A DNA stretch of 64,000 nt, from NCBI RefSeq assembly GCF_900182545.1, contig NZ_FXTJ01000002.1, positions 186,001-250,000 on the forward strand. The letters are read 5' to 3'. The DNA is from Geodermatophilus aquaeductus. GTDB taxonomy: Bacteria; Actinomycetota; Actinomycetes; Mycobacteriales; Geodermatophilaceae. Shown piece after piece: positions 4,693-8,435 of the stretch (position 1 is the first letter of the stretch; every line of letters begins with the position of its first letter). Position numbers and translations under genes: made by a program. The notes beneath the pieces are model-generated. The model did not search any database. It had not been told where the DNA came from and saw only the letters and a list, made by a program, of their open reading frames with translations.

Positions 4693-6123
4693 GTGGCACC
4701 GGTGCCCGACGGACTCGTGGCGGTCGTCAAGCGCGACTGCCCCACCTGCTCGCTGGTCGAGCCGGTCCTCCAGCAGCTGGCCGGCGCCGGCGCGCTGACC
4801 GTCGTCAGCCAGGACGACCCGTCCTTCCCCGCCGGGCTGCCGGTGACCGACGACCGCGAGCTGGAGGTCAGCTGGCGGCTGGGCATCGAGACGGTGCCCA
4901 CCCTGCTGCGGATGGCCGACGGCGCGGAGACCGGCCGCATCGAGGGCTGGCTGCGCGGACAGTGGGAGTCCTTCACCGGCGTGACCGGCCTCGGCGAGGG
5001 GCTGCCCGAGCACCGGCCCGGCTGCGGGTCCCGCAGCGTCGAGTGGGGCGTCGAGGAGGAACTGGCCCGGCGCTACGGCGGCCGGGTGCTCCGCGCCCGC
5101 AGGGTGGAGCTCGCCGACCTCGAGGACGACGTCGAGGCGGTGTACGACCGCGGCTGGAGCGACGGGCTGCCGTGCGTGCCGCCCACCGAGGAGCGGGTGC
5201 TCCGGATGCTGGCCGGCACGCGGCGGGCTCCCGACGAGGTCGTCGCCGTCGTCCCGCCCGACCTGGTCGAGTGCACGGTGGAGAAGGTGGCGGTGAACGC
5301 CGTCCTCGCCGGCTGCCTGCCCGAGCACCTCCCGGTGGTGCTCGCCGCGGTCGAGGCGGCCTGCCGCGACGAGTTCGCGCTGCACGGCGTGCTGGCCACC
5401 ACCTGGTCCGCGGGGCCGGTGCTGGTGGTCGACGGCCCCGTCACCGCGCGGCTGCGGATGAACTCCGGCGTCAACGCGCTCGGCCAGGGCAACCGGGCCA
5501 ACGCCACGATCGGGCGCGCGCTGCAGCTCGTCGTCCGCAACGTCGGCGGCGGCCGGCCGGGTGAGGTCGACCGCGCGACGCTCGGCAACCCCGGCAAGCT
5601 CGGCTGGTGCTTCGCGGAGGCCGACGACGACCTGCGGCCCTTCCCCCCGCTGGCCGAGTCGCGCGGCGTCCCCGGCTCGGCGCTCACCGTCTTCGCCGGC
5701 GCGGGGCTCACCCCGTTCCTCGACCAGGCCAGCCGGACGCCGGAGTCGCTGGCGCGCACGCTCGCGCTCGTCCTGCGCACCGTGGGCCACCCGAAGGCCG
5801 CGCTGGGCATGGACGCCCTCGTCGTCCTCGGTCCGGAGCACGGGCGGGTGTTCCGCGAGGCCGGCTGGGACCGCGAGCGGCTGCTCGCCGAGCTCGACCC
5901 GCTCCTGGAACTGCAGCCCGACGAGTTCCGCCGCGGCGCGCTGGGCATCGCCGAGGGGATGCCGGACGCGCTGGCCGACCGGCCGCTGCCCAAGTTCCGC
6001 CCCGGCGGGCTGCTGTTCGCCTACGCCGGCGGTCCCGCCGGCATGTTCTCGGCGGTGATCGGCGGCTGGGTCAGCGGTCCGGCCGGCAGCGTGCCGGTGA
6101 CCGTCCCGATCGAGGAGGCCTGA
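4693..6123 (+). CDS. Thioredoxin-fold protein fused to a large uncharacterised domain
   Basis: This 476-residue protein starts at a GTG with only a weak ribosome site. The first about 100 residues look like a thioredoxin fold: a redox CPTC motif at residues 16-19, and a cis-proline region ETVPTLLRM. The remaining 360 residues are a conserved-looking domain I cannot name, with landmarks GWSDGLPCVPPTEERV, a segment MNSGVNALGQGN and a glycine-rich end. Its TGA overlaps the ATG of the selenoprotein gene (TGATG at 6121-6125), so the two are translationally coupled and probably act together. The CxxC, the coupled selenoprotein and the reductase-like protein downstream suggest thiol/selenol redox chemistry (inference). 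Confidence 0.75.
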   Translation: MAPVPDGLVAVVKRDCPTCSLVEPVLQQLAGAGALTVVSQDDPSFPAGLPVTDDRELEVSWRLGIETVPTLLRMADGAETGRIEGWLRGQWESFTGVTGLGEGLPEHRPGCGSRSVEWGVEEELARRYGGRVLRARRVELADLEDDVEAVYDRGWSDGLPCVPPTEERVLRMLAGTRRAPDEVVAVVPPDLVECTVEKVAVNAVLAGCLPEHLPVVLAAVEAACRDEFALHGVLATTWSAGPVLVVDGPVTARLRMNSGVNALGQGNRANATIGRALQLVVRNVGGGRPGEVDRATLGNPGKLGWCFAEADDDLRPFPPLAESRGVPGSALTVFAGAGLTPFLDQASRTPESLARTLALVLRTVGHPKAALGMDALVVLGPEHGRVFREAGWDRERLLAELDPLLELQPDEFRRGALGIAEGMPDALADRPLPKFRPGGLLFAYAGGPAGMFSAVIGGWVSGPAGSVPVTVPIEEA

Positions 6124-6641
6124 TGGCACGAGTGCTGCTCGACCCGACGAGCGAGCGACGGCCGGCCGAGCGGGCCCTGACGGCCCGGCCGGCGTCGCTG
6201 GCGGGGCTGACGGTCGGCCTGCTGGACATCTCCAAGAACCGGGGCGACGTCGTCGTCGCGGAGCTGGAGGCGCTGCTGGCCGCCGACGGCGTCCGGACCC
6301 TGCGCTATCGCAAGCCGACGTTCGCCCGCCCCGCGCCGGTGGACCTGCGGCACGAGATCGCCACGCGGTGCGAGGTGGTCATCGAGGCGCTGGCCGACTA
6401 GGGCTCGTGCACGTCGTGCAGTGTGCACGACATCGCCGATCTGGAGGCCCGGGGCGTGGTGGGGGTCTTCCTCGCCTCCTCGGAGTTCGCCGACGCCGCG
6501 GCCGTCCAGGCGCGGGCGCTGGGCCTGGCGGTGCCGCACGTCCTCGTGCCGCACCCGATCCAGGACCGGACCGACGACGAGCTGCGCCGGCTGGCCCGGG
6601 ACGCCTACCCCGCGGTGCTCGGGGCGGTCACGTCCGGCTGA
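6123..6641 (+). CDS. UGSC-family selenoprotein with selenocysteine encoded by in-frame UAG
   Basis: Codons 1-92 run from ATG 6123; codon 93 is TAG (6399-6401); the same frame then stays open for 79 codons to TGA at 6639-6641, giving 172 residues if the TAG is read as selenocysteine. Across it the protein reads ALAD-U-GSCTSCSVHD, the motif that names the UGSC (seleno)protein family, and both halves look like one family member (LLDISKNRGD in the N-terminal half, VPHPIQDRTDDEL near the C-terminus). The family usually has UGA at this position; UAG-directed selenocysteine is reported in Geodermatophilus and Blastococcus. A SECIS-like hairpin starts directly downstream. C96 and C99 form a CTSC next to the Sec. 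Function is unknown; a redox role is inferred. Automatic annotation would give a 92-residue stub. Confidence 0.85.
6405..6431 (+). promoter_or_regulatory. Bacterial SECIS-like hairpin for the UAG selenocysteine codon
   Basis: Counting the U of UAG as 1, bases 15-22 (6413-6420) pair perfectly with 26-33 (6424-6431), leaving a GUG loop in which G23 and U24 sit at the tip. This is the place occupied by the essential G23-U24 of the E. coli fdhF element that SelB reads. A second, mutually exclusive pairing (6405-6412 with 6423-6430, also 8 bp) leaves a ten-base loop. The bulged U17 of fdhF is not present; the base there is C and is paired. The element lies inside the coding frame, as bacterial SECIS elements do. 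Confidence 0.7.
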
Positions 6642-6700: not shown

Positions 6701-6779
6701 GAGCCTGGTGCCCGGGCGCACCGCGCTCCTAGCCTCCCGGGATGACGGCACCGCCTGCCCGACGCGCCGGCCGGCCCAC

Positions 6780-8435
6780 GTGACCCTCCCCCTGCTGGTC
6801 GCGGTCGACGACGACCCCGGCCTGCTGCGGGACGTCGAGCGGGAACTGCGCACCCGGTACGCCGGCGACTACCGCGTCTGCTGCCTGGGCTCGGCCGGCG
6901 AGGCGCTGGCCGTGCTGCGGCGGCTCGCGGGGGCCGGCGAGGAGGTGGCCCTCGTGCTCGCCGGCGAGGTGGTCGACGGCCGCTCCGGCACCGAGCTGCT
7001 CGCCGAGGTCCCGCGCTCGTTCCCGCACGCGCAGCGCGTCCTGCTCGTCGCGTGGGGGCACCTCGGCGACTCCGGGACCGGCAACGCGATCTTCGACGCC
7101 GTCGCCACCGGGCGCATGGACCACTACGTGATCCGGCCCGCCCCGCCACCGGACGAGCAGTTCCACCAGGCGATCTCGGGCTCCCTGCTGGCGTGGGCCG
7201 ATGCGCGCGGCTCCGCTCCGCACACCGTGGACGTCGTCGGGGAGACCTGGACCGGCCGGGCGTCCGAGCTGCGCGAGGTGCTGGGACGCTGCGCCATCCC
7301 GCACCGGTTCTGCCTGGCCGACTCCGAGCAGGGGCGCACGCTGCTGGCCGGCACGGGCCCGCGGACGCTGCCGCTGGTGGTCATGCCGAGCGGGCACGTC
7401 CTGGAGGACCCGAGCGACGCGGAGATCGCCCGGGCCGCGGGCTCGACGGTGGACCCGGACAGGGACCGGTACGACCTCGTGATCGTCGGGTGCGGGCCGG
7501 CCGGCCTGTCCGCGGGTGTCTACGGCGCCTCCGAGGGGCTGCGCACCCTGGTCGTGGACTCGGGCAGCCTCGGCGGGCAGGCCACGTCGAGCTCGGCGAT
7601 CCGCAACTACCTCGGCTTCCCCCGGGGGGTCAGCGGCGCGGAACTGGCCCGCCGGGCCTACCAGCAGGCGTGGGTCTTCGGCGCCCGCTTCGCCTTCATG
7701 CAGCGGGTCACCGACCTGGCTCCCGAACCCGACGGCATCGCCCTCACCCTCGACACCGGCGGGGTCGCGGTCGCGCGCGCCGTCGTCCTGGCGACGGGTG
7801 CCAGCTACCGCCTGCTCGGCGTCCCGGCGCTCGAGGCGCTGCGCGGCGCCGGCGTCTTCTACGGCGCCGCGGCCTCCGAGGCGCCGCTGGTGGCGGGGAG
7901 GGACGTCGTCGTCGTCGGGGGTGCCAACTCCGCCGGGCAGGCCGTCCTGCACCTGGCCCACTACGCCCGCCGGGTCACGCTCGTCGTGCGGGCCGCGACG
8001 CTCGCCGCCGGGATGTCGGACTACCTGGTCCGGCAGATCGAGGCGACCCCCACCATCGAGGTCCGCACCGGGACCGAGGTGGTCGACGGCGGCGGGGAGG
8101 GCTGGCTGGAACGGCTCGTGCTGCGCGACCGCGCGACCGGGACCCGGGAGACGGTCGCCGCCGACGGGCTGTTCCTGATGATCGGCGCGCGGCCGCACAC
8201 CGAGTGGCTGCCCCCGGCCGTCCAGCGCGACGCGGCCGGGTTCGTGATGACCGGGCCCGACGTGGACGCGGGCGGACGCGACCGCGCTCCCCTGCCGCTG
8301 GAGACCAGCCTCCCGGGGGTCCTCGCGGTCGGGGACGTCCGGCACGGCTCGGTGCGCCGCGTGGCCTCCGCCGTCGGCGAGGGCTCGATCGCGATCCAGC
8401 AGGTCCACCGCCTGCTCGCCGCCACGGGCGCCTGA
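6780..8435 (+). CDS. FAD-dependent thioredoxin-reductase-like protein with degenerate receiver and glutaredoxin-like domains
   Basis: Start GTG 6780 gives 551 residues; an upstream ATG at 6708 only adds arginine-rich filler. Residues 5-125 form a response-regulator-like domain: the acidic patch DDD is present, but the phospho-acceptor position is G62 (VLAGEVVDG) and the conserved Lys is R119, so it should not be phosphorylated. Residues about 148-215 look like a glutaredoxin/ArsC-type fold. Residues 230-550 are thioredoxin-reductase-like, with FAD motif VGCGPAGLSAG and NAD(P)H motif VVVGGANSAGQA; the usual redox CxxC is replaced by a serine-rich TSSSAI. This architecture recurs in actinobacteria. 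It follows the selenoprotein gene by 138 bp and may supply electrons to it (inference). Confidence 0.8.
   Translation: MTLPLLVAVDDDPGLLRDVERELRTRYAGDYRVCCLGSAGEALAVLRRLAGAGEEVALVLAGEVVDGRSGTELLAEVPRSFPHAQRVLLVAWGHLGDSGTGNAIFDAVATGRMDHYVIRPAPPPDEQFHQAISGSLLAWADARGSAPHTVDVVGETWTGRASELREVLGRCAIPHRFCLADSEQGRTLLAGTGPRTLPLVVMPSGHVLEDPSDAEIARAAGSTVDPDRDRYDLVIVGCGPAGLSAGVYGASEGLRTLVVDSGSLGGQATSSSAIRNYLGFPRGVSGAELARRAYQQAWVFGARFAFMQRVTDLAPEPDGIALTLDTGGVAVARAVVLATGASYRLLGVPALEALRGAGVFYGAAASEAPLVAGRDVVVVGGANSAGQAVLHLAHYARRVTLVVRAATLAAGMSDYLVRQIEATPTIEVRTGTEVVDGGGEGWLERLVLRDRATGTRETVAADGLFLMIGARPHTEWLPPAVQRDAAGFVMTGPDVDAGGRDRAPLPLETSLPGVLAVGDVRHGSVRRVASAVGEGSIAIQQVHRLLAATGA

Follow-up and report, generated by a model that had tools for sequence, protein, structure and literature searches.

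The window, by which we mean the whole 64-kb stretch of DNA analysed here, contains a gene of the UGSC family that is interrupted by an in-frame UAG, and the start of this gene shares bases with the stop of the preceding gene (TGATG). The features of the locus are as follows.

4693..6123, plus strand: partner gene, whose product has an N-terminal thioredoxin-like domain carrying CPTC and a further domain of 350 residues that lacks a Pfam match
6123..6641, plus strand: UGSC-family gene, 172 residues when UAG is counted as selenocysteine (Sec), with profile matches in both halves
6399..6401, plus strand: in-frame UAG, the predicted Sec codon (U of UGSC, residue 93), with UAG at this place in 72/95 family copies
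6413..6431, plus strand: putative bSECIS-type hairpin supported by comparative evidence, GTCGTGC (6413-6419), loop AGTGT (6420-6424) and GCACGAC (6425-6431)
6639..6641, plus strand: TGA, the true stop codon according to the frame reading

Reading of the frame gave 92 codons from 6123, the TAG at 6399-6401, 79 sense codons and the TGA at 6639-6641, which confirms the frame proposed in a preliminary description of this DNA. Both parts matched the UGSC profile PF24696 (172 positions), the first over positions 2-92 with 57.6 bits and the second over positions 94-171 with 64.6 bits (cut-off 25). The two halves leave exactly position 93 uncovered, so the TAG occupies the missing position, the U of the motif, where the preliminary description had placed it. 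Family membership requires U or C followed by GSC, and the window gene carries UAG-GSC at this point with the UAG on the U column. Read through the stop, the gene passed the cut-offs of PF24696 (141.9 bits, cut-off 25) and NF041046 (133.6 bits, cut-off 125); the halves scored separately against NF041046 reached 52.9 and 67.1 bits, each below 125. The probability that 79 codons stay open by chance at the G+C content of the window is about 0.31, which is weak evidence by itself and was not counted. Chance is ruled out by the homology found both before and after the TAG, and by the recurrence of TAG at this codon in 72 of the 95 family copies, without any other stop.

The family set comprised 112 genomes; NF041046 was found in 54 of them, in 95 rows, and the codon at the U was read in every row. 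It was TAG in 72, Cys in 22 (TGC 20, TGT 2), TCG in one degenerate copy (G066) and TGA in none, and in none of the 95 rows was there a stop elsewhere than at the U codon. The presence of the same TAG in 48 genomes rules out a sequencing error as its source. In addition, the GTDB species genomes were scanned for the UGSC gene and the best 80 named loci were taken, a sample that overlaps with the family genome set. Here the codon was TAG in 15, all from Geodermatophilus or Blastococcus, and TGA in 65, with the top-ranked TGA copy, from a Frankiaceae genome, 76% identical. Relatives thus carry Cys or UGA at the site, in agreement with what the preliminary description expected of such an alignment. 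Across the class, UGSC matches were found in 20 of 345 genomes, the source genome included; the only other match with an internal stop came from an outgroup (G514), which has TGA in a window-type gene and a tRNA-Sec with the TCA anticodon. In a tree of 82 rows (the window, the best 80 named loci and G514) the 16 TAG rows fell on one side of a branch of low support (60), requiring one change against a mean of 14.8 after shuffling. Several family genomes (L019-L026, L085-L091) also carry Cys-type UGSC paralogues, often two per contig and lacking the AGT loop described below, with the UAG-type gene elsewhere in the genome.

The source genome (G000; 5.43 Mb, 99.97% complete) encodes a single tRNA above the Rfam tRNA-Sec cut-off (G000:C7:110346-110437, 65.4 bits), and its anticodon is CTA (CUA). 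It is adjoined by selA (413.5 bits) and selB (279.2 bits), and selD (389 bits) lies on the opposite strand about 0.5 kb from this group, all three over their cut-offs. The preliminary description had proposed selC with a CUA anticodon, selA, selB and selD as the genes by which a Sec reading could be checked, and the presence of all four lends it support. SelD has a Cys within its GGGCACK motif, at what we take to be the catalytic position, and in the SECIS-binding part of SelB the sole Pfam match is one winged helix near the C-terminus.

A second gene with an in-frame UAG is found in the same genome. The FDH gene (NF041513, 1915.7 bits) contains a TAG (first base at G000:C13:118449, minus strand), which aligns with residue X of PDB chain 1kqf_A (FDH-N), presumably Sec. 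The TAG is followed by an 11-base spacer, a 7-bp stem and a GGTCT loop, the same geometry as in the UGSC hairpin. At the Sec site TAG was present in 11 of the 12 FDH loci checked; the twelfth (L278, genome G079) gave no Sec-motif match, and its row, with one TGA, is a partial or damaged copy. FDH itself occurs in at least 98 of the 108 family genomes searched (E <= 1e-50). None of the nine AhpC-TSA matches in the source genome (E <= 1e-5) has an internal stop. The genome hence combines the elements by which a UAG-decoding bacterial Sec system is recognised: a CUA tRNA-Sec, selA, selB and selD, a hairpin after the codon and more than one predicted UAG selenoprotein gene.

A different meaning of the codon, pyrrolysine or an ordinary amino acid inserted by an amber-suppressor tRNA, is very improbable. 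ARAGORN labels the CUA tRNA-Sec (L017:10342-10437) as tRNA-Pyl, a label that we attribute to its CTA anticodon, but the tRNA scores over the Rfam tRNA-Sec cut-off and adjoins selA and selB, and so does not qualify as a tRNA-Pyl. Furthermore, the site is occupied by UGA or Cys in relatives, and the UAG of the FDH gene falls on the residue of 1kqf_A assumed to be Sec.

The UAG is also used as an ordinary stop. Among 33 window ORFs, picked mechanically by length and codon-position G+C and left uncurated, 25 end with TGA, 7 with TAG and one with TAA. Because UAG terminates these other frames and a conserved SECIS-type hairpin follows the Sec UAG, we regard the decoding as context-dependent recoding with a bSECIS-type hairpin and reject a general reassignment; the "true codon reassignment" of the preliminary description is therefore not upheld. 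A search for a stop followed by such a hairpin matched the 64-kb window once, at 6399.

The hairpin begins 11 bases past the UGSC UAG and has a 7-bp stem. Its AGTNT loop stands at a constant position downstream of the TAG in 72 of 72 TAG rows of the family against 0 of 23 other rows, and AGT is a rare codon, used for 4 of the 641 Ser codons in the 33 window ORFs. Over 31 distinct sequences, 91.9% of the cells were paired, three pairs had changed on both sides, and covariation was 0.354 against 0.100 in shuffled alignments, with slid controls reaching 0.148 at most. Simply counting the pairs with double changes gave no excess over the shuffles (452/500), and some of the covariation stems from the protein, since the subfamilies differ in amino acids here. 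Among the best 80 named loci, all 67 with the exact GSCTSCS.HD motif (52 TGA, 15 TAG) have the AGTGT loop; of the TGA loci L186, L240 and L237, the first two have it and the last lacks it. When the window's own copy is folded alone, another hairpin is favoured (z -1.61), and among 5000 silent recodings 233 fold no worse than the real sequence. In the fold test, mean z was about -2.1 to -2.4 for subfamilies A, B and C, and a weak -0.7 to -1.05 for subfamily D; in the 23 rows that lack TAG it was -0.22.

The conservation on the two sides of the TAG bears on two further readings. If the gene were a nonsense pseudogene, its UAG would have arisen by mutation from a Cys or UGA codon and its second half would be decaying; such genes are usually recognised by a lone in-frame stop, and the family does contain the one degenerate UGSC copy in G066. 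However, the same-codon TAG recurs in 72 copies from 48 genomes without any other stop, the AGT loop codon is kept in all 72, and purifying selection is equal across the TAG (pN/pS 0.367 before and 0.359 after, in 36 type A copies). We hence share the view of the preliminary description that a pseudogene is unlikely, and would put its probability close to nil. Real termination at the UAG, with the halves made as separate chains by reinitiation at GTG 6423, could draw on this in-frame GTG shortly past the UAG, on the storage of the first half in databases as a stub and on the fact that selection on both halves cannot tell one chain from two, but it is hardly credible, as the Cys homologues are single chains, the residues right after the UAG (GSCTSC), invariant in a 13-row alignment, would be lost, and the CUA tRNA-Sec and the hairpin would be left unexplained. 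As to the database entries, many of the 120 UGSC homologues listed, out of 2562, are short and cover about half of the query, and two of them (P0020 and P0038) finish with ...IEALAD, that is, at the stop.

A UAG at the place where relatives have UGA or Cys, in a genome that encodes a tRNA-Sec(CUA), is very likely read as Sec. On these comparative grounds we consider that the UAG of the UGSC gene at window positions 6123-6641 is, with high probability, decoded as Sec by the tRNA-Sec(CUA) of the source genome. In the mechanism that we propose, SerRS would charge the tRNA-Sec(CUA) with serine, and SelA, using selenophosphate from SelD, would convert the charged serine to Sec. SelB would then deliver the Sec-tRNA to the ribosome, recognising the hairpin located 11 bases past the UAG, and this delivery may outcompete RF1 at the UGSC UAG only.

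The match between codon and anticodon was followed through the family. A tRNA-Sec match was obtained in 109 of the 112 genomes, that of G071 being weak (51.8 bits). The anticodon was assigned in 107 of the 112: 99 genomes have CTA alone, seven have TCA alone (genera g5, g6 and g7) and one has both. All 48 genomes with a TAG UGSC copy have a CTA tRNA-Sec, 47 of them CTA alone and one CTA together with TCA. The six remaining genomes with UGSC genes have Cys copies only, with a TCA tRNA-Sec in two and a CTA in four. In the whole order, the CTA tRNA-Sec pattern matched 77 of 397 genomes, of which 75 belong to this family; the other two are G362, a two-mismatch match that reads TTCAAA and thus has a UCA anticodon, and G230, from another family. 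The G230 match (contig C194, L163; genome 82% complete) lies on a contig of 4.8 kb, which carries the CUA tRNA-Sec together with a selD closely resembling that of the source genome and may be contamination.

The single genome with both anticodons (G058) belongs to the genus of the window. Its CUA tRNA-Sec (G058:C11:15836-15927, L184; 65.3 bits) adjoins the only selA match of the genome. The UCA tRNA-Sec (G058:C17:1173-1263, L050 and L084; 81.8 bits) lies near the start of a contig of lower G+C whose ORFs appear transposase-like by eye. Neither the sel, FDH, UGSC or partner proteins of the source genome (tblastn) nor the stop-plus-hairpin pattern had a match in positions 1-60000 of this contig (of 69,133), and the contig may be a contaminant.

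Taken together with the relatives, these data suggest that the anticodon (UCA to CUA) and the Sec codons (UGA to UAG) changed together with the hairpin unchanged. A wider scenario seems doubtful to us: a single UGA-to-UAG swap for a whole branch of the family, with anticodon and codons changed and the SECIS kept as it was, and with one or more members (G058 at least) also holding a UCA tRNA-Sec, on the contig with transposase-like ORFs, which would give Sec two codons, UAG and UGA, in one cell served by a single SelA.

Structure modelling of the UGSC protein (pLDDT 88.6) gave alternating strands and helices in a flavodoxin-like arrangement, with residue 93 just before a helix. By sequence it had no match to PDB chains at E <= 1, and the fold search with the model turned up matches of generic kinds only (flavodoxin, TIR, PurE and receiver-type), for which reason we claim no enzyme function. 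The product may function in thiol/selenol redox chemistry, its U-x-x-C site lying at the helix start. A homologue of the partner (more than 150 residues matched) was present in the fetched flank, in any order or on either strand, of 92 of the 95 family UGSC rows and 73 of the best 80 named loci, several flanks of the latter being shortened. The partner protein has at least 8000 homologues, and its CPTC is invariant in 14 of them that were aligned. Its structure model is poor (mean pLDDT 62.7); most of the 50 fold matches listed are thioredoxins, none at E <= 0.001, and the N-terminal part is thioredoxin-like with weak scores. This CPTC domain is likely to reduce a selenenylsulfide of the U-x-x-C site. 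Downstream, at window positions 6708-8435, a TrxR-like protein with an extra N-terminal part is encoded. It was dropped as a candidate component of the system, being found near one of 36 type A UGSC copies (that of the window itself) and 9 of 19 type C copies.

UAG-encoded Sec in UGSC genes of Geodermatophilaceae is already in print, and the window gene adds a member. Mukai et al. 2016 (Angew Chem 55:5337), as cited in PMC5330540, reported a CUA tRNA-Sec and UAG in FDH and UGSC genes of three Geodermatophilaceae genomes, PMC5330540 added the UAG-encoded AhpC of Blastococcus saxobsidens DD2, and UAG-Sec in some bacteria is mentioned in general terms in PMC10778597 and PMC8124441. The present system shares the family, the tRNA-Sec(CUA) and the UAG in UGSC and FDH with the one set out in PMC5330540, and in these respects there is no basic difference. 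Beyond that account, as far as PMC5330540 sets it out, go the anticodon census (99 CUA, 7 UCA, 1 both), the hairpin common to UGA genes and the partner gene, which we do not claim to be unreported. With the AhpC of B. saxobsidens DD2 (PMC5330540) the window gene has the UAG, the bSECIS and the tRNA-Sec(CUA) in common, while the protein differs. Similarly, the UGA-encoded UGSC selenoproteins (PF24696, NF041046; PMC2398784) share its family, UxxC and AGUGU-loop hairpin, but the Sec codon of the window gene is UAG, not UGA. Moreover, the 2008 GOS survey held a Trx-like fold likely for the UGSC family (PMC2398784), whereas the fold predicted here is flavodoxin-like.

The locus represents a natural codon swap in which the same gene, residue and hairpin occur with UGA or UAG according to lineage, matched by the anticodon. 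This suggests that the tRNA and the hairpin, and not the identity of the stop codon, determine the meaning Sec. Whether the anticodon or the codons changed first, or a stage with two tRNAs occurred, could be tested in cultured Geodermatophilaceae. In practical terms, UAG-Sec genes enter the databases as truncated stubs, and the tRNA-Pyl label given by ARAGORN is a likely source of wrong annotation in Geodermatophilaceae.
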